Assembly (NCBI RefSeq): GCF_013359685.1
Contig: NZ_JABFMV010000004.1
Location: forward strand, 186,001-250,000
Origin: Leifsonia sp. C5G2
Lineage (GTDB): Bacteria; Actinomycetota; Actinomycetes; Actinomycetales; Microbacteriaceae
Direction: 5' to 3'
Length of the DNA stretch: 64,000 bases
The stretch's first letter is position 1, and each line of letters starts with the position of its first letter. Positions 49,411-58,172 of this stretch are shown in pieces. The notes under the pieces are model-generated. The model saw only the letters and a program-made list of their open reading frames with translations. It made no database searches and was not told where the DNA came from. The position numbers were made by a program, and so were the translations under genes.

Positions 49411-49806
49411 CTACACCGCCATGCCCCTGCGCAGCGGCGCCGGGTCGAGCCGCACCCACACGACGCTGACCAGCCGATCGGCCAGGTCGACGGCGATCGC
49501 CGCCGTCGGTCGGCCGCCTCGGCTGACCACGAGGCCGGGCCGGTCGTTGACCGGGCGCTCTGCCACCTCCTGACCGTCGCGGGCCGACAGGGCGTGCACG
49601 AGGAGCAGCGAGGCGTCGTCCGGGCCGTGGACGACCCGGACCTTCGCGCGGTCGGGCTCGCCCGCATCCACGACGACGGCGACATCGGGCGCGAGGAGCT
49701 CCCGCAGCCGCCGGAGGTCACGGGAGGACGCGGCGGCGCGCAGTGCGCCGACCGTCCTCCGCCGGCGGCCCCGGTGCGTGGGCGTGCGCAGCGCGATCAG
49801 CGACAT
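49411..49806 (-). CDS. stand-alone SnoaL-like domain related to the C-terminus of ECF41 sigma factors
   Basis: This 131-aa protein keeps the features of the SnoaL-like extension of SigJ/ECF41: an early helix (GALRAAASSRDLRRLRELLAPDVAVVVDAG in parts), then VNDRPGLVVSRGGRPTAAIAVDLAD and a final V-V-W-V-R strand. It lacks any sigma region and the NPDKL tail. ATG 49806 lies 40 bases after a TGTCACA-N16-GGTC promoter on the minus strand. It may modulate SigJ or bind its ligand; that is inference. Confidence 0.65.
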   Translation of the reverse strand: MSLIALRTPTHRGRRRRTVGALRAAASSRDLRRLRELLAPDVAVVVDAGEPDRAKVRVVHGPDDASLLLVHALSARDGQEVAERPVNDRPGLVVSRGGRPTAAIAVDLADRLVSVVWVRLDPAPLRRGMAV

Positions 49807-49882: not shown

Positions 49883-49909
49883 TGTCACAGATCGCGGGGC
49901 TGTCTTGTC
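49883..49909 (+). promoter_or_regulatory. ECF41 (SigJ)-type promoter upstream of the NmrA-like gene
   Basis: TGTCACA (49883-49889), 16 bases, then TGTC (49906-49909). ECF41 promoters have been reported with a TGTCACA -35 and a CGTC -10 at this spacing. The last 11 bases GCTGTCTTGTC are identical to the promoter at 51635-51661. Confidence 0.75.
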
Positions 49910-49956: not shown

Positions 49957-50718
49957 ATGAAGATCGTCGTCATCGGCGGGACGGGCCTGATCGGCCGGAA
50001 GGCCGTCGAGCTGCTGCGGCAGGAGGGCCACGAGGTGCTGGCCGCCTCGCCGTCGACCGGGGTGGACGCCGTCACCGGCGAGGGCCTCGCCGACGCGCTG
50101 CGCGGGGCGGACGTGGTCGTCGACGTGCCGAACGCGCCGTCCTTCGCGGACGACGCGGTGCGCGAGTTCTTCGAGCGCTCGGCCACCAACCTGGCCGCCG
50201 CGGAGAAGGCGGCCGGTGTGCGGCACCACGTCGTCCTGTCGATCGTCGGAGCCGACCGGATGCCCGACATCGGGTACATGCGAGCCAAGGTGCTGCAGGA
50301 GGGCATCGTCCGGGAGTCCGGCGTGCCGTTCACGATCGTCCGCGCCACGCAGTTCTTCGAGTTCATCGGCGCCCTGGCCGACGGCGGGACGCAGGACGGC
50401 GCGGCCGTGCTCTCCGACGTGCTCATGCAGCCGATCGCGGCCGCCGACGTCTCGACCGCCCTCGCGGAGGTCGCGGTCGCCGAGCCGCTGAACGACGTCA
50501 TCGAGGTGGCCGGTCCGGAGCCGCTGCGCCTCGACGACCTCGCCCGGCGCCTGTTCGCCGCCCGCGGGGACAGCCGGGAGGTGCGCACGGACCCGTCGGC
50601 CGGCTACTACGGCGGAACGGTCGACGACCGCTCCCTCACCCCCGGCAACGACCCGCGGGTCACGCACCAGCAGTACGGGAGCACGACGTACTCCCGCTGG
50701 TTGGAGCAGGACCGGTAG
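49957..50718 (+). CDS. NAD(P)-binding NmrA/YwnB-like reductase
   Basis: The 253-aa atypical SDR has a Rossmann start MKIVVIGGTGLIGRKAVELL and conserved strands VVVDVPNAPSF and HHVVLSIVGADRMP, and a YMRAKVLQEGIV helix containing the K of YxxxK-like sites. ATG 49957 follows CGGAGGATCGC. Its promoter matches SigJ/ECF41 and the sigma gene starts ten bases after its stop, the classical ECF41 pairing with an oxidoreductase. The substrate is unknown. Confidence 0.85.
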   Translation: MKIVVIGGTGLIGRKAVELLRQEGHEVLAASPSTGVDAVTGEGLADALRGADVVVDVPNAPSFADDAVREFFERSATNLAAAEKAAGVRHHVVLSIVGADRMPDIGYMRAKVLQEGIVRESGVPFTIVRATQFFEFIGALADGGTQDGAAVLSDVLMQPIAAADVSTALAEVAVAEPLNDVIEVAGPEPLRLDDLARRLFAARGDSREVRTDPSAGYYGGTVDDRSLTPGNDPRVTHQQYGSTTYSRWLEQDR

Positions 50719-50728
50719 CATTCGGCCG

Positions 50729-51622
50729 ATGCCGGGACGCGCTCCAGAGCACGAGGACCTCGACACCGCCGCGACCGAGTTCGCGGCGGTGCGTCCCCGC
50801 CTGTTCGGGATCGCGTACCGGATGCTCGGCACGGTGGCCGACGCCGAAGACATCGTCCAGGACACCTGGGAACGCTGGCAGCGCACCGACCGCTCGGTGG
50901 TGCGCGAGCCTGCGGCGTTCCTTGCGACGACGGCGACGCGGCTCGCCATCAACCACGCGACGTCGGCGCGGGCGCGCCGCGAGAGCTACGTCGGTCCGTG
51001 GCTGCCGGAGCCGGTCGACACGAGCGCCGACCCGGCACTCGGTGCGGAGCGCGGGGAGGCGCTCGAGTTCGCCGTGCTCGTGCTGCTGGAGAAGCTGACG
51101 CCGACGGAACGCGCCGCCTACGTGCTGCGGGAGGCGTTCGACTACCCGTACGCGCAGATCGCGGAGGTGGTGCAGGGGTCGGAGGCGTCCGCCCGCCAGC
51201 TGGTCAGCCGGGCCCGCAAGCACCTCGCGGAGGAGCGCGACGTGCACGAGGTCGGCCACACCGAGCAGCGCAGGATGCTCGACGCCTTCCTCGAGGCCGC
51301 GCAGTCCGGCGACATCGCCGAGCTGGAGAAGCTGTTCGCGGCCGACATCGTCAGCTACTCCGACGGCGGCGGCCTCGCCCGCGCGTCCCGCATCCCGGTG
51401 TTCACCCGGGAGACCGTGGCGAAATACGTGCACGCGTTCCACACCCGGTTCTGGGACGGGACGGTGCACGTCGTCGAGGCGAACGGCGCGCCGGCCGCCG
51501 TGCTCGTCCGGGACGGCGCCGTCGTGGCCTTCATCGCGCTCGACGTGACCGACGGCGGCATCCGCCGGCTGCAGTGGGTGCTCAACCCGGAGAAGCTGGA
51601 GCGCCTGCCCGTCCCCGCCTGA
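50729..51622 (+). CDS. sigJ: ECF41-family sigma factor SigJ with SnoaL-like C-terminal domain
   Basis: The 297-aa protein has sigma region 2 (RPRLFGIAYRMLGTVADAEDIVQDTW) and region 4 (LTPTERAAYVLREAFDYPYAQIAEVV), each given in part. The C-terminal SnoaL domain shows the three ECF41 markers: the linker GPWLPEPV, DGGGLAR (usually DGGGK) and NPEKL (usually NPDKL) near the end. In this group the extension takes the place of an anti-sigma factor. Targets in the window are the three TGTCACA-N16 promoters. Confidence 0.92.
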   Translation: MPGRAPEHEDLDTAATEFAAVRPRLFGIAYRMLGTVADAEDIVQDTWERWQRTDRSVVREPAAFLATTATRLAINHATSARARRESYVGPWLPEPVDTSADPALGAERGEALEFAVLVLLEKLTPTERAAYVLREAFDYPYAQIAEVVQGSEASARQLVSRARKHLAEERDVHEVGHTEQRRMLDAFLEAAQSGDIAELEKLFAADIVSYSDGGGLARASRIPVFTRETVAKYVHAFHTRFWDGTVHVVEANGAPAAVLVRDGAVVAFIALDVTDGGIRRLQWVLNPEKLERLPVPA

Positions 51623-51634
51623 ATCCCGCCCGCC

Positions 51635-51661
51635 TGTCACATTTCGAGCCGCTGTCTTGTC
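51635..51661 (+). promoter_or_regulatory. ECF41 (SigJ)-type promoter upstream of the NDH-2/cytochrome b operon
   Basis: TGTCACA (51635-51641), 16 bases, then TGTC (51658-51661), 43 bases before the ATG of the NDH-2 gene. It shares 11 contiguous bases (GCTGTCTTGTC) with the promoter at 49883-49909, although the genes behind them are unrelated. Confidence 0.78.
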
Positions 51662-51704: not shown

Positions 51705-53075
51705 ATGCGCCGGATCCTCGTGGTGGGCGGCGGCTATGCCGGGTTCTACACGGCCTGGAACCTGGAGAAGAAGCTCAGGAGGGACGAGGCCGAGATCGTC
51801 GTCGTCGACCCCCGCCCGTACATGACCTACCAGCCGTTCCTGCCGGAGGTCGCGGCCGGCTCCATCGAGGCGAGGCACGCCGCCGTCGCGCTGCGCAGCC
51901 ACCTGAAGCGGGCGCGTCTCATCCACGCGTCCGTCACCCGTATCGACCACGCCTCGAAGACCGTGACCGTCGCCCCGGAGGACGGCGAGCCGTTCGACCT
52001 CGGCTACGACATCGTCGTGGTGACCGCGGGCGCGGTGACGCGCACGTTCCCGATCCCCGGGGTGAAGGAGCACGCGATCGGCATGAAGCACGTGGAGGAG
52101 GCGGTGGCGATCCGCGACCGCCTGCTCGACGCGTTCGACCGGGCCTCCGTGCTGCCTCCGGGACCGGAGCGCACACGTCTGCTGACCGTCGCGTTCGTCG
52201 GCGGCGGCTTCTCGGGCGTCGAGGGCTTCGGCGAGACGCTGTCGCTCGCGACCGCGCTGCTCCGCCAGTATCCCGAGCTGCGCTTCCCCGACCTGTCGTT
52301 CCACCTGATCGAGGCGCGCGACCGCATCCTGCCCGAGGTCACCGACGGACCGGGACGCTGGGTGGTGCGGTCGCTGGAGCAGCGCGGGGCGCACATCCAC
52401 CTCGACACCCAGCTGGTGTCGGCGGAGGGCGGCCACCTGGTGCTGTCGACCGGTGAGGAGTTCGACGCGCACACGATCGTCTGGACGGCCGGCAACGGCG
52501 CCAACCCGGTCGTCGCACGCAACACCGACCTGCCCGTGACGGCCCGCGGCTCGGTGATGGTGCGGGCGGACCTGCGGGTGGGGACGCCGGAGGAGGTCGT
52601 CCCGGACGCGTGGGCGGCCGGCGACGACGCAGCGGTGCCCGATCTCGCATCGCCGATCGCGGGGGCGGTCACCGTGCCGAACGCGCAGCACGCCGTCCGC
52701 CAGGGGCGCCTGCTGGCGAGGAACATCGTGGCGACGCTGCGGGGGCGCGAACCGAAGGAGTACGTGCACCACAGCCTCGGCGTGGTGGCGACCCTCGGGC
52801 TCGGAAAGGGCATCTTCCAGTGGAAGGGCATCGTCATCACGGGGTTCCTCGCGTGGGTGATGCACCGCGGGTACCACGTGCTCGCCATCCCGACGTGGGA
52901 GCGGAAGGTGCGGGTGCTGCTGGTGTGGGCGACCGCCGTGCTCTTCGGACGCGACATCGTGTCTCTGCTGTCGGTGCAGCATCCGCGGCGCGCGTTCGAC
53001 GGCGGCGAGGCGCCGCGAGCGGTGCCCGAGGCCGCGCGTGCGGAGGAGCGCGAGCTGGCCGGGAGCGCGCGATGA
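51705..53075 (+). CDS. ndh: type II NADH dehydrogenase (NDH-2)
   Basis: The 456-aa flavoprotein has an FAD-binding GGGYAGFYTAWNLEKKL, a NADH-binding VAFVGGGFSGVEGFGE, and late motifs WTAGNGANPV, WAAGDDAAVPD and VTVPNAQHAVRQG containing the conserved A-Q-x-A quinone-site region. The C-terminal membrane-binding helices follow (WKGIVITGFLAWVMHRGYHVL in part). It oxidises NADH and reduces quinone without proton pumping. ATG 51705 follows CAGGAGGCAG. The stop overlaps the cytochrome b start as ATGA. Confidence 0.88.
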   Translation: MRRILVVGGGYAGFYTAWNLEKKLRRDEAEIVVVDPRPYMTYQPFLPEVAAGSIEARHAAVALRSHLKRARLIHASVTRIDHASKTVTVAPEDGEPFDLGYDIVVVTAGAVTRTFPIPGVKEHAIGMKHVEEAVAIRDRLLDAFDRASVLPPGPERTRLLTVAFVGGGFSGVEGFGETLSLATALLRQYPELRFPDLSFHLIEARDRILPEVTDGPGRWVVRSLEQRGAHIHLDTQLVSAEGGHLVLSTGEEFDAHTIVWTAGNGANPVVARNTDLPVTARGSVMVRADLRVGTPEEVVPDAWAAGDDAAVPDLASPIAGAVTVPNAQHAVRQGRLLARNIVATLRGREPKEYVHHSLGVVATLGLGKGIFQWKGIVITGFLAWVMHRGYHVLAIPTWERKVRVLLVWATAVLFGRDIVSLLSVQHPRRAFDGGEAPRAVPEAARAEERELAGSAR

Positions 53076-54724
53076 GCATCGACCGGAGGCCGCGGCCCTC
53101 GTTCACCGCACGCGCGTCGCGCCTGCTCGCGAACACCTCGGCCGGCCGGCGCACGGCGGCCCTGAGCGCCGAGCTGCGGACGCGACGCGTGCCGCTGCAC
53201 TGGACGAACCTGTTCGGCGTCGTCGCGCTCGCCTCCGTCGTCGTGCTGTTCGTCACCGGGTTCCTGCTGATGTTCTGGTACACGCCGTCGGGGACGCGGG
53301 TCGTCTACGACGGCCCGTACCTGCCGCTCGCCGGAGCGGAGATGTCGAAGGCGCTGCGGTCGACGCTCGCGATCTCGTTCGAGGTGCCGGGCGGCCTGCT
53401 CATCCGGCAGGCGCACCACTGGGCGGGGCTGCTGCTGCCCGCCGCACTGCTCCTGCAGCTGGCGGTCACCTTCTTCACCGGCGCGTTCCGCCGCCCGCGC
53501 CGGCTGTCGTGGCTGCTGCTGTTCGGGCTCGGCCTGACGGCGCTGCTCGGCGGCTGGAGCGGGTACGCCCTCCCCGACGACATGCTGTCGGGCACGGGGC
53601 TGCGGATCGTGGAGGGCATCGTCCTCGGCATCCCCGTGGTCGGGACCTGGCTTTCGGCGCTGCTGTTCGGCGGCGAGTTCCCGGGCCGGATCATCGAGAA
53701 CCTGTACCCGATCCACGTCGCGATCGTGCCGGTGCTGCTCGTGCTGCTCCTCGCCGCACGCTGGCGGAGCGCCTACGTGAACCGGCCGGCGCAGTTCGCC
53801 GCTCCCGGGCGGACGGAGGAGCGCATCGTCGGCGTGCCCGTGCTGCCGAACCTGGCCGCGCGCGCCGGCGGACTGTTCGCCATCGTGACAGCCGCCATCC
53901 TGCTCGTCGGCGCGACGGTGACGATCAGCCCGGTGTGGCTGTACGGCCCGTCGTCGCCCGGCGACGCCTCCGCCGGCAGCCAGCCGGACTGGTACACCGG
54001 CTTCCTCGACGGCGCGCTCCGGCTCATCCCGCCGGGGTGGGAGGTGGAGTGGCTGGGGCGCACCTGGACGCTCGCCGTCCTCGTCCCCCTCGCCGTGATC
54101 GGCCTGTTCCTGGTCGCGGTCGCCGCCTACCCGTTCGTGGAGGAGTGGATCACGGGCGACCACCGCGACCACCACCTGCTCGACCGGCCGAGGAACGAGC
54201 CGACCCGGACCGGAATCGGCGTCGCCGGGCTCCTCTTCTACGGTGTGCTCTGGGGTGCGGCGAGCGCCGACCTCGTCGCCACGCACTTCCACGTGGCCGT
54301 CGAGTCGGTGGTCGCCGCCTACCAGGTGCTCGCCGTCGCCGGGCCACCGCTCGCGTTCTGGGTGACCCGCCGGGTGTGCCTCGCGCTGCAGAAGCGCGAC
54401 CGCGACATCCTGCTGCACGGCTACGAGACGGGCCGGATCGTGCGGCTGCCCGGCGGCGAGTACGTCGAGCTGCACGCCCGGGTGGATGCGGACGAGCAGG
54501 CCAGGCTCGCCGGTCCGGTCGCCGCGCATCCCGCCGACGCCCGGCCCGACCAGGACGGCCGGCTGCGGCTCTCGGAACGGCTGAGGGCGGTGCTGTCGAG
54601 GGCGTACTTCGAAGACCGGCTGGAGCCGGTGCCGCCCGACGCGCGGCAGACGGAACACGACGGCCAGGTCGGCGGAGGGCGGACGGATGAGGCGATCGCG
54701 CAGGAGCGGGCGGGCGCGGCGTGA
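53072..54724 (+). CDS. QcrB-like cytochrome b lacking the heme bH ligands
   Basis: The 550-aa membrane protein resembles actinobacterial QcrB through its length, including the Qo motif PDWY (QPDWYTGFLDGAL) and the tail GYETGRIVRLPGGEYVELH. The bL ligands are kept: H115 (QAHHWAG) and H215 (LYPIHVAIV). The bH ligands are not: the position 14 after H115 is Q129 and that 15 after H215 is R230, both His in normal QcrB. No cytochrome c1 or Rieske gene is present. It probably passes quinol electrons with the coupled NDH-2, but not by an ordinary Q-cycle. Confidence 0.82.
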   Translation: MSIDRRPRPSFTARASRLLANTSAGRRTAALSAELRTRRVPLHWTNLFGVVALASVVVLFVTGFLLMFWYTPSGTRVVYDGPYLPLAGAEMSKALRSTLAISFEVPGGLLIRQAHHWAGLLLPAALLLQLAVTFFTGAFRRPRRLSWLLLFGLGLTALLGGWSGYALPDDMLSGTGLRIVEGIVLGIPVVGTWLSALLFGGEFPGRIIENLYPIHVAIVPVLLVLLLAARWRSAYVNRPAQFAAPGRTEERIVGVPVLPNLAARAGGLFAIVTAAILLVGATVTISPVWLYGPSSPGDASAGSQPDWYTGFLDGALRLIPPGWEVEWLGRTWTLAVLVPLAVIGLFLVAVAAYPFVEEWITGDHRDHHLLDRPRNEPTRTGIGVAGLLFYGVLWGAASADLVATHFHVAVESVVAAYQVLAVAGPPLAFWVTRRVCLALQKRDRDILLHGYETGRIVRLPGGEYVELHARVDADEQARLAGPVAAHPADARPDQDGRLRLSERLRAVLSRAYFEDRLEPVPPDARQTEHDGQVGGGRTDEAIAQERAGAA

Positions 54725-55082
54725 GGCGGATACGGCTCCGCTCGCGGCACTGGTGGCCGCGTTCCGCGATGCGTACCTCTCGGGCGACCCGGTCCGCGTG
54801 GGTCTCCTGCTCGCGCCCGGCGTGCGGGTGGTCGTCGACTCCGGGGGCGTCTCCGGCCGGGCTCACGGCCCGGCCGACGGCGTCACGGCGGCGCTGACGC
54901 TCCTCGCGGTCACTCTCGGCGGGCCGGACGGACTGCGCCTCGACCCGTGCTCGGTCAACGGCCGCCCCGGCCTGCGCGCCTCCCGCGAGGGCCGGCCGGT
55001 GGCGGTGATCGCCCTCGACGGCGGCACCTGCGTCGACCGCGCCTGGCTCGTCACCAACCCCGACAAGCTCCGCCACTGGTGA
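54687..55082 (+). CDS. stand-alone SnoaL-like domain related to ECF41 C-terminus
   Basis: The 131-aa product overlaps the cytochrome b gene by 38 bases. After a basic start it reads APLAALVAAFRDAYLSGDP, then VNGRPGLRASREGRPVAVIALDG and ends WLVTNPDKLRHW, the exact NPDKL marker of ECF41 sigma factors, without any sigma region. It is the third such domain within 6 kb. It could be a ligand-binding or decoy domain acting on SigJ, or an enzyme of its own. Confidence 0.68.
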   Translation: MRRSRRSGRARREADTAPLAALVAAFRDAYLSGDPVRVGLLLAPGVRVVVDSGGVSGRAHGPADGVTAALTLLAVTLGGPDGLRLDPCSVNGRPGLRASREGRPVAVIALDGGTCVDRAWLVTNPDKLRHW

Positions 55083-55100
55083 CCCGAGGCCGGCGACTCG

Positions 55101-55226
55101 TCACGAATCGCGCCGATTCGTGACGAACGGCGGCGATTCGTCACCAATCATGCCTCCGCTTCCCCGCTGTTCGTCACGAACGGCGTCGATTCGTCACGAA
55201 CGGCCGCGATTCGTGACGAGTCGCGG
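55101..55226. repeat. cluster of TTCGTCACGAA-type palindromic repeats
   Basis: This intergenic stretch begins with the same 23-base palindrome found at 24878-24900 (arms TCACGAATCG and CGATTCGTGA, centre CGC). It then carries four or more variants: GATTCGTCACCAATC, TTCGTCACGAACGG twice, and GATTCGTGACGAGTCG. There is no gene here. A related half-site ACTCACGAATCG occurs at about 58,322. Confidence 0.75.
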
Positions 55227-55245
55227 CCGGGCGTAGCGTGGCGGC

Positions 55246-55969: not shown

Positions 55970-57211
55970 CTAGGCGAGCGCGTCGCGCCGCCGCGCGAGA
56001 GCCGCCGCCTCGGCTGCATTGCCGGCGAGGGCGATGGCGCGGCCGTAGGCCTCCCGCGCGGCCGTCGTCCGGCCGAGCCGGCGCAGCAGGTCGGCCCGCG
56101 TCGCGTGGAACGCGTGATAGCCGTCGAGGTCGGCCGCCAGCGCATCCACCTCGGCCATAGCGACTTCCGGGCCCTCGAGCTCGGCGACCGCGATCGCCCG
56201 GTTCAGCCGCACGACGGGCGACGGGTCGATCCGGGCCAGCCGGTCGTACAGGGCCACGATCTGCGACCAGTCCGTGTCCGCCATCGTCGGCGCCGAGGTG
56301 TGCACCGCGCCGATCGCGGCGAGCAGCTGGTAGCGGCCGGGACGTGCGCCGGCCCTCGCGGCGGCCAGGCGCTCGCGCACCAGGGCGTGACCCGCGGCGA
56401 TCAGGTCCGCATCCCAGGCGCGGCGGTCCTGGTCGGCGAGCGCGACCAGCTCGCCGACGGAGGAGACGCGGCCGGGCCTGCGGGCCTCGGTGAGCAGCAT
56501 CAGGGCGAGCAGGCCGGTCGTCTCACCGTCGTCGGGCAGCAGCTCGTGCACCAGACGCGTCAGCCGGATGGCCTCCGCCGTCAGCTCGCCCCGCACCGGG
56601 CCCGTGTCCGGCCCGCTCGCCAGATAGCCCTCGTTGAACACGAGGTACAGCACGGCGAGCACCCCGGACAGGCGCGCGGGCAGGTCGTCGGCGGAGGGCA
56701 CCCGGTACGGGATGCGCGCTGCCGCGATCTTCCCCTTCGCGCGGGTGATCCGCTGACCCATGGCGGCCTCCTGCACGAAGAAGGCGCGCGCGATCTCCGC
56801 GACGGTCAGGCCGGCGACCAGACGCAGCGTCAGCGCCACCCGTGCGGGCATCGCGAGCGCCGGGTGGCAGCAGGTGAACACCAGCCGCAGCCGGTCGTCC
56901 TCCACCGCGCCGACCGGCTCCGGAGGCTCGTCGTCGAGCACGAGCATCGCCTCCCTGTGTTTGTCGTCCCGCCTGCTCTCGCGGCGGAGGCGGTCGATCG
57001 CCTTGCGGTTCGCCGTGGTCGTCAGCCACGCGCCCGGGTTGGGCGGGACGCCGTCCATGCGCCACCGCTCCACCGCCACGGCGAACGCCTCGGCCGCCGA
57101 CTCCTCCGCGATGTCCAGGTCGCCGAAGCGACGGGCGAGGGAGGCCACAACCCTGGCCCACTCCTCGTGGTGGGCCCGGGTGATCGCCTGCTCGACCGCC
57201 TCCCGCGTCAC
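55970..57211 (-). CDS. ECF42-family sigma factor with TPR-like C-terminal extension
   Basis: The 413-aa protein has sigma region 2 (RVVASLARRFGDLDIAEESAAEAFA in part), the ECF42 linker GAWLTTTANRKAIDRLRRE, and region 4 (PARVALTLRLVAGLTVAEIARAF). The ~200-residue C-terminal part (LPDDGETTGLLALMLLTEAR, RIDPSPVVRLNRAIAVAELEGPEVA in part) forms helical repeats. GTG 57211 overlaps the stop of the DGPF gene, its typical partner. Confidence 0.9.
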   Translation of the reverse strand: MTREAVEQAITRAHHEEWARVVASLARRFGDLDIAEESAAEAFAVAVERWRMDGVPPNPGAWLTTTANRKAIDRLRRESRRDDKHREAMLVLDDEPPEPVGAVEDDRLRLVFTCCHPALAMPARVALTLRLVAGLTVAEIARAFFVQEAAMGQRITRAKGKIAAARIPYRVPSADDLPARLSGVLAVLYLVFNEGYLASGPDTGPVRGELTAEAIRLTRLVHELLPDDGETTGLLALMLLTEARRPGRVSSVGELVALADQDRRAWDADLIAAGHALVRERLAAARAGARPGRYQLLAAIGAVHTSAPTMADTDWSQIVALYDRLARIDPSPVVRLNRAIAVAELEGPEVAMAEVDALAADLDGYHAFHATRADLLRRLGRTTAAREAYGRAIALAGNAAEAAALARRRDALA

Positions 57212-57531
57212 AGGAACGGACGCACCTCCACCTTGCGGTTGCAGGCGCGGGAGCCCTCGGTCGCCAGGGCGAGGGCGACATCCAGGTCAGGTGCTTCGAT
57301 GATCCAGAAACCGGCGAGGAACTCCTTCGACTCGACGAACGGGCCGTCGGTGACGAGCGGCTCGTCGCCGCGGTTGTCGATCACGGTGGCGGTGTCGGGC
57401 ATGCCGAGGCCACCCGCGAACACCCAGTACCCCTCGGCCTGGAGGCGGTCGTTGAAGACGTCGATCGCGGCCTGCTCCTCGGGGACGGCGAGGCCGGGCC
57501 GGTCGTGGATGACGGACAGCAGATACTGCAT
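57208..57531 (-). CDS. DGPF-domain (YCII-related) protein
   Basis: This 107-aa protein has the eponymous motif in LVTDGPFVESKEFLAGFWII and the early YLLSVIHD strand. DGPF proteins are encoded next to ECF42 sigma factors and are usually their targets; their activity is unknown. The start at 57531 gives the common MxYLL opening; ATG 57549 or 57552 are possible. It precedes and is coupled to the sigma gene. Confidence 0.87.
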   Translation of the reverse strand: MQYLLSVIHDRPGLAVPEEQAAIDVFNDRLQAEGYWVFAGGLGMPDTATVIDNRGDEPLVTDGPFVESKEFLAGFWIIEAPDLDVALALATEGSRACNRKVEVRPFL

Positions 57532-57548
57532 CGGTCGATCATCCCGCA

Positions 57549-58172
57549 TCATCGTGCCGCCGGGTACTGCGGACGGCCGTTCGGGCGGAACACCTGGATG
57601 GTGACGCCCTTGCTGTCGATCTGCGAGTCGAGCAGCTCCAGCGCGATGTCCGGGCCGTCCTGCGGGAACAGCCGCGTCCCCTGGCCGAGGATGACCGGCA
57701 CGACCAGCAGCTCGAGCTCGTCGACGAGCCCGTTCGCCAGCAGCCAGCGGACCAGGGCTCCGCTTCCGTGCACCTGCACCTCGCCGCCCGGCTGCGCCTT
57801 CAGGTCGGCGACGGCCGCCGCGAGGTCGCCGGAGAGGACGGTCGTCCCCTCCCACTGCGGCGAGGTGAGGGTGGTCGAGGCGACGTACTTCGGCCGGGTG
57901 TTGAGGGGACGCCAGACGGACTCCCACCCGCGGACCTGGTCCGCATCCCACGAACCCCAGGAGCCGGCGAACACGTCGTACGTGTGCCGGCCGAAGAGGA
58001 AGGCGTCGGCGCGTTCGTAGGTCTCGTTGATGTGAGCGTGCGTGGATGCGTCGCCCAGCCCCAGCGCCCAGCCGCCGCGGTCGAACCCGCTCCTGCGGTC
58101 CTCCTCCGTGGCTCCGCCGTTTCCCTGCATGACGCCGTCCAGCGTGACCTGGGTGACCGTCCTGAGCTTCAT
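57549..58172 (-). CDS. dihydrofolate reductase family protein (RibD C-terminal-like)
   Basis: The 207-aa protein opens MKLRTVTQVTLDGVMQGNGG and has AFLFGRHTYDVFAGSW, KYVASTTLTSPQW, VQVHGSGALVRWLL and LLVVPVILGQGTRLF, typical of the YwjB/DHFR-like NADPH reductases. Such proteins are often adjacent to DGPF genes. True folate reduction is unlikely because the family lacks the usual substrate residues. It may form an operon with the DGPF and ECF42 genes. Confidence 0.83.
   Translation of the reverse strand: MKLRTVTQVTLDGVMQGNGGATEEDRRSGFDRGGWALGLGDASTHAHINETYERADAFLFGRHTYDVFAGSWGSWDADQVRGWESVWRPLNTRPKYVASTTLTSPQWEGTTVLSGDLAAAVADLKAQPGGEVQVHGSGALVRWLLANGLVDELELLVVPVILGQGTRLFPQDGPDIALELLDSQIDSKGVTIQVFRPNGRPQYPAAR

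Follow-up and report, generated by a model that had tools for sequence, protein, structure and literature searches.

An Orphan QcrB-Family Cytochrome b without Heme bH Ligands, Encoded with a Type II NADH Dehydrogenase behind an ECF41-Type Promoter Sequence in Leifsonia

Introduction

A cytochrome b chain with two hemes, bL and bH, is regarded as a defining part of complex III. Here we describe a QcrB-like orphan cytochrome b that lacks the bH ligands, encoded at positions 53072..54724 (+ strand) of a 64,000-nucleotide stretch of the genome of Leifsonia sp. C5G2 (Microbacteriaceae; assembly GCF_013359685.1, contig NZ_JABFMV010000004.1, positions 186,001 to 250,000); this whole stretch is called the window below, and positions are counted from its first letter. 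The protein resembles the actinobacterial QcrB of bcc-aa3 (NF050120; PDB 7q21, 6adq, 6hwh, 9ftz) in fold, bL ligands, the PDWY motif of the Qo site, and length. It differs in lacking the bH ligands and a nearby arginine, in the divergence of its half on the negative (N) side of the membrane, and in its surroundings, where an extracytoplasmic function (ECF) sigma factor promoter of the ECF41 type and a gene for a type II NADH dehydrogenase (NDH-2) were found instead of adjoining qcrA and qcrC genes.

The forms of cytochrome b without bH met in the cited literature are laboratory mutants, at least in the parts of the two papers drawn on here (PMC4330944, PMC4807273). Rhodobacter capsulatus H212N, like the Leifsonia protein, keeps bL and has lost a bH ligand; it is, however, a single point mutation made in the laboratory, whereas in the orphans of the window type both ligands and a large part of the N side have changed, naturally and in separate lineages. 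Paralogs of qcrB outside the qcr-cta locus are described in Streptomyces coelicolor (QcrB2, SCO7120, and QcrB3, SCO7236; PMC7931247); no ligand loss is described for them in the main text of that paper, from which the words "histidine" and "ligand" are absent, and our comparison with them is by description only. Finally, ECF41/COE systems share with the window the type of sigma factor, the promoter (published as TGTCACA-n16-CGTC), and a linked gene of epimerase or oxidoreductase type (PMC3426412); the words "NADH", "cytochrome", and "quinone" are absent from the main text of that paper, and a likely respiratory target is where the window differs. Streptomyces orphan QcrB copies, ECF41, and NDH-2 were thus already known. 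In a search of open-access titles and abstract starts, with subscription papers and preprints lying largely outside it, we met neither a natural loss of bH from QcrB nor an ECF41-controlled cytochrome b.

In simple terms, the protein appears to be an extra copy, in soil bacteria, of a protein of the respiratory chain; a stress-type regulator probably turns it on. The reading we favor, with a probability of about 0.45, is that it is a single-heme, Qo-only QcrB paralog that would act in the resident bcc-aa3 complex and, with NDH-2, would provide a redox-relief branch under ECF41.

Results and Discussion

The Cytochrome b Gene and Its Ligand Positions

The gene is an intact frame whose 550-amino acid product belongs to the QcrB family by sequence as well as by fold. 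It scores 557.5 bits against NF050120 (bc1_QcrB_actin), the NCBIfam model of actinobacterial QcrB (curated cut-off 500), and both PF13631 and PF00033 exceed their Pfam cut-offs, as for the cytochrome b of a bc complex. The first nine Foldseek matches of an AlphaFold2 model (predicted local distance difference test, 82.2; predicted template modeling score, 0.81) are mycobacterial or corynebacterial QcrB chains, and its core superposes on 9ftz_H with a template modeling score of 0.94 (by target length) and a root-mean-square deviation of 2.0. Identity with the host's own canonical QcrB is 51%; the closest named relative found is in Leifsonia virtsii (96%).

Alignment to solved QcrB chains places H115 (53414..53416, +) and H215 (53714..53716, +) at the bL-ligand positions, and Q129 (cag; 53456..53458, +) and R230 (cgc; 53759..53761, +) at the first and second bH-ligand positions, the assignment of each ligand histidine of the solved chains to bL or bH being the one we assume. 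This member of the QcrB family therefore does not offer bis-histidine ligation to both hemes. The Qo-site motif is retained as PDWY at residues 305-308 (53984..53995, +; full string SQPDWY). The original prediction, made from the sequence alone, had proposed just this combination of lost bH histidines with kept bL histidines and PDWY, and translation, alignment, and codons all confirm it. With such ligand positions, a normal bH heme is very probably missing. The loss is hidden by annotation because the protein exceeds the NCBIfam cut-off and so passes for an ordinary bc1 cytochrome b.

The absence of a Rieske or c1 gene, claimed at the same time, holds for the locus and not for the genome. We found no QcrA or QcrC match beside the closely related, near-identical locus L032 (13.6 kb), nor among the selected window frames scanned by Pfam, and at neither locus is the cytochrome b encoded with Rieske and c-type subunits. 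Both subunits exist elsewhere in the host genome, where a different contig carries the canonical operon CtaE-QcrC-QcrA-QcrB (L109).

Ligand Loss among Homologs

Homologs were collected from a set of genome contigs (genome_contigs; 77 loci) and from three groups of genomes: 150 belonging to the same family, 296 to the same class, and 150 to one further family. The alignment holds 150 distinct sequences from the fetched loci, namely the best matches to the window protein and chosen stretches, and leans to nearest relatives; three short or broken copies (L104, L105, L106) were excluded before ligands were counted. We call orphan a gene with no QcrA/QcrC match in the sequence stretch examined, which is short for some contigs.

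Histidine occupies all four ligand positions in 58/58 QcrB genes with QcrA/QcrC nearby and in nine of nine further Streptomyces canonical QcrBs. The 92 orphans comprise 53 H-H-H-H, 29 H-Q-H-R, 1 H-Q-H-L, 5 H-H-H-Y, 2 H-H-H-R, 1 H-Y-H-H, and 1 H-H-Y-H, so that 38 lack at least one bH histidine. A bL histidine is missing in a single case (L096), which adjoins a broken NDH-2 gene and has a damaged Qo motif. The window protein belongs to a Microbacteriaceae-type clade of 27 rows (one from another family) in which glutamine is found at position 129 in every member and arginine at position 230 in 26 (leucine in L013); the conservation of the pair, which the original prediction had left to be checked among homologs, is therefore nearly complete. 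PDWY is present in all 27. The arginine that stands three positions beyond the first bH ligand, presumably a partner of the bH propionates, is replaced throughout the clade (T in 14, V in 9, A in 4), and G150 is changed to leucine in 27/27.

A bH heme might still be bound, through the glutamine and/or the arginine or in a shifted register. Bis-histidine ligation is not absolute, as a His-Lys heme functions in an engineered cytochrome b (PMC4807273, in the part used here), and one Streptosporangiaceae-type relative (L210) has a histidine beside its arginine. We nevertheless consider this very improbable, given the near-invariance of Gln and Arg, the changes at the nearby arginine and at G150, and the outcome of a search for a substitute: no histidine near the bH site is conserved across the 27-row clade, and an alternative bH histidine, which would have undone the original prediction, is ruled out there. 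The only new histidine that is even partly conserved, at position 210 (14/27), is located in the model where helix D begins, on the P (positive) side of the membrane.

Ligand loss extends beyond this clade. Streptomyces orphans show scattered H/R, H/Y, and Y/H combinations at the bH positions. A second set of Gln/Arg genes comes from a family that we call Streptosporangiaceae-like, a name inferred from the resemblance of its bH-less members to those of Nonomuraea, Streptosporangium, and Thermocatellispora; its 17 rows and three named rows amount to 19 distinct genes because one gene appears twice, as L100 and L200. All have glutamine at the first bH position. At the second, arginine stands at +15 in L209, L212, L213, and L214, and at +14 in the others, together with a one-residue deletion. 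In L210 a histidine follows the arginine; the helix carries the one-residue deletion of most relatives, with arginine at the ligand place, and we read the histidine at +15 as a register effect, this assignment being less certain than the others. Four of these genes (L210, L211, L212, L214) are without PDWY, and their Qo site may be altered too. QcrB itself appears multiplied in Streptosporangiaceae-like genomes, three of which (G464, G519, G498) have 7, 7, and 8 QcrB-like matches, G498 being incomplete and fragmented. One Microbacteriaceae genome with a Gln/Arg orphan also carries two tandem H-H-H-H qcrB genes beside QcrA/QcrC (L172; G006:C1:1301000-1319000).

Selective Constraint and the Location of Changed Residues

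The ratio of nonsynonymous to synonymous substitution rates (dN/dS) is 0.14-0.44 in 8/8 orphan pairs and 0.089 in a canonical pair; the orphan is under constraint, weaker than that on QcrB proper. The gene might be a decaying duplicate without function, as its faster evolution and the existence of short or broken copies (L096, L104-L106) would suggest. Purifying selection in all eight pairs, with dN/dS well below 1, the invariant bL and Qo residues, the conserved promoters, and the separate origins described below make this the least credible reading; a pseudogene or a chance substitution is rejected on dN/dS together with conservation.

The changes are not spread evenly. We defined as canonical-invariant the 141 positions with at least 93% conservation in canonical QcrB, 126 of which lie in residues 1-419. 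Such residues are kept in the clade at 100% in 301-325 (11 positions), 99% in 176-200 (7 positions), and 96-100% in 376-475, vs 41% in 26-50, 57% in 126-150, and 36% in 226-250. Positions were then assigned to the N or the P side by us, from the helices of the model and known topology, and counted as lost when kept in under half of the rows. In five tests, with uncorrected P values, losses in the Gln/Arg clade amounted to 20/54 on the N side vs 11/72 on the P side (P = 0.0066; P = 0.019 without the ligand positions), and the same comparison gave 28/54 vs 15/72 in three Streptosporangiaceae-type rows (P = 0.0005), 14/54 vs 8/72 in three H/Y rows (P = 0.035), and 6/54 vs 6/72 in the Streptomyces orphans, whose ligands are mostly intact (P = 0.76). 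Loss of conserved residues thus leans to the N side, the bH/Qi half, and conservation is much higher in the P-side half.

This pattern is also what would be seen if the orphan had a dominant-negative or regulatory role, in which ECF41 would bring about a dead-end QcrB that throttles bcc-aa3 and the electrons from NDH-2 would flow to another oxidase, for example, cytochrome bd. The bH/Qi-side residues are lost with the P side better kept, and engineered bH knock-outs are without normal turnover, as described in the part of PMC4330944 used here. The retention of the bL ligands and the Qo motif under purifying selection, however, goes beyond the needs of a blocking subunit, and we regard such a role as unlikely, if the most plausible of the alternatives to a Qo-only subunit.

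Phylogenetic Relationships

Two trees are considered here. The first, a careful one, left out L096 (degraded), L013, and L169 and included the nine added Streptomyces canonical rows; the second left out L117 as well, and contained every second Microbacteriaceae Gln/Arg row and the 17 Streptosporangiaceae-like Gln/Arg rows. In the first tree, the Microbacteriaceae orphans (support 100/100) stand beside the Microbacteriaceae canonical QcrBs (86/99), and the main Streptomyces orphan group (100/100) with the Streptomyces canonical QcrBs (100/99); L060, L090, and L157, also Streptomyces orphans, belong to neither group. A descent of the Microbacteriaceae orphans from those of Streptomyces is rejected, since the main groups each lie with their own family's canonical QcrB. 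Three Microbacteriaceae H/Y orphans form the sister group of the Gln/Arg clade and may represent an intermediate form. In the second tree, the 17 Streptosporangiaceae-like rows group with the other QcrBs of that family (97/92). A single clade for both Gln/Arg groups is rejected by the approximately unbiased test (log-likelihood 68.75 lower, p-AU 0.0007), a post hoc test as the groups were visible on earlier trees, and one that long branches may influence. These trees suggest that the Gln/Arg pair arose separately in Microbacteriaceae and in the Streptosporangiaceae-like family.

The NDH-2 Gene

The first gene of the operon, directly upstream of the cytochrome b gene, encodes an NDH-2 (51705..53075, +), recognized by its Pyr_redox_2 domain and by NDH-2 structures among its best PDB matches; the ATG at 51705 was chosen by inspection, the open reading frame being listed from 51657. 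Besides the family domain, motifs resembling FAD and quinone sites are found, invariant across 15 aligned homologs, with VPNAQHAVRQG being what we take to be the quinone site. As stated in the original prediction, the end of this gene and the start of the cytochrome b gene overlap, by four bases (53072-53075).

NDH-2 genes lie directly upstream of 11 of the 27 Gln/Arg orphans and one of the three H/Y orphans, and an NDH-2-type enzyme (closest solved chains 5kmq and 4nwz) is encoded directly downstream in 8/20 Streptosporangiaceae-type loci (19 distinct), so that three lineages include orphan QcrBs with a neighboring gene of NDH-2 type. The window NDH-2 is 67-79% identical (96% for L. virtsii) to the orphan-adjacent enzymes of Microbacteriaceae, of one other family, and near Streptomyces orphans; other NDH-2 copies reach at most 64% in Microbacteriaceae (best 56-64%) and 48% in Streptomyces. 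One NDH-2 subfamily is therefore common to Microbacteriaceae and Streptomyces, while the cytochrome b groups by family. Judging from this recurrent neighborhood, the window cytochrome b is likely a functional partner of NDH-2.

What form the partnership would take is another matter. The original prediction envisaged a bL-only cytochrome b working with NDH-2 as a new kind of quinone oxidoreductase, perhaps a one-electron shuttle or a quinone sensor; the NDH-2 link has gained support, and the stand-alone partner or sensor is less supported. Gene overlap and the repetition of the pairing in separate lineages agree with a stand-alone complex of the two proteins. Yet a closed pair would not need a cytochrome b that follows the family beside a shared NDH-2, and 16/27 orphans are without an adjacent NDH-2. 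Moreover, the site of action of NDH-2 is the cytoplasmic face of the membrane, and bL is close to the opposite one, which would leave the two apart with no bH between them. We consider a self-contained pair improbable, compared with a subunit of the resident complex fed by NDH-2.

Promoter and Sigma Factor

An exact ECF41-type promoter, TGTCACA-N16-TGTC, lies at 51635..51661 (+), its end 43 nt upstream of the NDH-2 start codon (ATG, 51705). Immediately upstream is the gene for an ECF sigma factor of SigJ/ECF41 type (50729..51622, +), which exceeds the TIGR02957 and NF007214 (SigJ) cut-offs over its full length and contains Pfam regions 2 and 4; it has the C-terminal extension of ECF41 factors, in which SnoaL_2 is weak (E = 0.0038, below cut-off), and an ECF41 promoter at a linked target gene. 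A second exact promoter (49883..49909, +; TGTCACA-N16-TGTC) precedes a gene for an NmrA-like NAD(P)-binding protein (49957..50718, +; NAD_binding_10 and NmrA above Pfam cut-offs), an ECF41-type "COE" gene whose ATG at 49957 was picked by inspection (49867 in the open reading frame list). In the whole 4.09-Mb host genome, in which three sigma genes exceed the SigJ cut-off, TGTCACA-N16-YGTC has three exact sites (none for the reversed control): the two window sites, both with TGTC, before the NmrA-like gene and the NDH-2/cytochrome b operon, and a third near another ECF41 gene. This third site (G000:C11:290723-292868; L197, outside the window) is near another SigJ-type gene and a Pyr_redox_2 oxidoreductase gene, and this second ECF41 unit of the host genome may control a flavin oxidoreductase too.

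Among homologs, we accepted a promoter with at most one mismatch in 11 and a spacer of 15-17, within 200 nt of the cytochrome b gene or of the NDH-2 gene that opens its operon. By this rule, 21 of the 27 bH-less genes have an ECF41-type promoter (13 before cytochrome b, 8 before NDH-2), vs 1 of 58 canonical QcrB genes. Streptomyces orphans have one before the cytochrome b gene in 18/46 cases (with GGTC as the -10 element in 16 of the 18), and at Streptomyces loci with a same-strand NDH-2 gene it precedes the latter in 9/11. The three named Streptosporangiaceae-type Gln/Arg rows all have the promoter, and in a further Streptosporangiaceae-like set, which shares one gene with them, it was found in 13/17 Gln/Arg genes and in none of 13 H-type relatives. 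Shuffled sequences, which preserve base composition only, reach the rule in 0-1.7% by set (0.6-0.9% for the 27 bH-less and 58 canonical sets). A SigJ-type gene lies within ~6 kb of 13/33 bH-altered loci. The window operon is, from these patterns, very probably an ECF41 target, and the control by a SigJ-like factor proposed originally is likely on account of the promoters both at the locus and in the clade.

Other Features of the Locus

Downstream of the cytochrome b gene, a small frame (54687..55082, +) resembles the C-terminal part of SigJ alone (TIGR02957, E = 6e-11, profile positions 150-279, below cut-off), and a 91% identical match adjoins the L. virtsii ortholog; it is a possible accessory regulator. 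A second small frame, at ~49429-49779 (-), flanks the cluster on the other side and likewise matches only the C-terminal part of SigJ, below cut-off, so that both are possible stand-alone regulators. The intergenic stretch 55095-55235 holds, by eye, several near-palindrome copies around TTCGTGACGAATCG. Further on, a DUF6596 sigma factor (55970-57211, -) overlaps a YCII-domain protein (57208-57951, -), an arrangement that we take to be ECF42-like. An anti-phage defense role was also considered and rejected, three proteins giving no PADLOC match.

A Possible Role in the Resident Complex

Good evidence stands behind the ligand loss and the promoter; the electron route that follows is our inference. 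When ECF41 is active, the resident bcc-aa3 complex would contain the orphan in place of QcrB; oxidation of menaquinol would occur at Qo, and electrons would pass through the Rieske protein and cytochrome cc to aa3, with no return via bH to the Qi site. No Q cycle is expected without bH. Together with the non-pumping NDH-2, this would form a route from NADH to oxygen that conserves less energy and resists back-pressure, that is, redox relief under stress. We place the orphan in the resident complex because families have an NDH-2 in common whereas the cytochrome b follows the family, and because the P-side half has changed less; together these observations point to a subunit fitting the resident Rieske and c-type partners. 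The chance that it acts inside the Rieske/cc/aa3 complex seems to us even, and that the net result is an uncoupled branch is a more tentative proposal. In S. coelicolor, the orphan QcrB3 copurifies with bcc-aa3 parts and Nar1, and deleting QcrB3 alone left Nar1 activity unchanged (PMC7931247, in the parts used here); by analogy, QcrB3 may serve as a precedent for an orphan QcrB near the complex.

Several observations weigh against a Qo-only subunit paired with NDH-2 under ECF41. The orphan pairs are less constrained than the canonical pair, dN/dS between the window gene and the host's own canonical copy is 0.70, and 11/72 canonical-invariant positions are lost on the P side as well; PDWY is absent in 4/17 Streptosporangiaceae-type relatives. 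The promoter is absent by our rule in 6/27 bH-less genes and 3/3 H/Y orphans (one of the latter has it in a wider window), and 22 other genomes hold 0-7 exact promoter patterns, some without an orphan. For 16/27 Microbacteriaceae-type orphans there is no adjacent NDH-2 in the stretch examined, and the 67-79% NDH-2 subfamily was not found elsewhere in 8/8 searched genomes of such orphans (G057, G028, G006, G079, G009, G113, G337, G411; best 56-64%, one partial). L117, a Microbacteriaceae-type orphan with adjoining NDH-2 and ECF41 genes, has the longest branch of the clade and lies in another family, so that transfer without local copying can happen. Finally, as described in the parts of the two papers used here, the R. 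capsulatus bH knock-out H212N has no normal Qo-Qi turnover, bL still being reduced (PMC4330944), and with antimycin blocking the b branch a Rieske-only turnover hardly runs, though possible in principle (PMC8361435).

An evolved Qo-only enzyme would therefore need further changes, and the Rhodobacter limits leave three outcomes. The orphan may have evolved past them, the outcome we favor at odds slightly short of even; it may throttle the complex, the unlikely reading discussed above; or it may enter a mixed dimer with canonical QcrB, in which electrons would pass from the orphan bL to the partner bL and on to the partner bH and Qi site, giving two Qo sites and one Qi site. Transfer between the two bL hemes with one bH knocked out has been shown in fused Rhodobacter cytochromes b (PMC4330944, in the part used here), and the host genome retains a canonical qcrB; a mixed dimer, however, leaves the NDH-2 link unexplained, and we rate it below throttling, on a par with the self-contained NDH-2 pair.

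If the orphan does act as a Qo-only subunit of the resident complex, a wider picture can be drawn, which we offer as speculative: actinobacteria may have repeatedly evolved bH knock-outs, twice with the same Gln/Arg pair, and, with NDH-2 under ECF41, these would form an inducible counterpart of the I-III-IV chain, free of the Q cycle and not conserving energy, obtained by swapping one subunit. A natural, conserved, and apparently regulated bH-less form in at least two families offers a ready system in which to study whether Qo can oxidize quinol in the absence of bH, what prevents short circuits, and whether a complex III free of the Q cycle is something that cells employ on purpose. ECF41 sigma factors gain a likely respiratory target, and a bH-less QcrB beside a non-pumping NADH dehydrogenase suggests that these bacteria may have a natural form of respiration without the usual energy storage.

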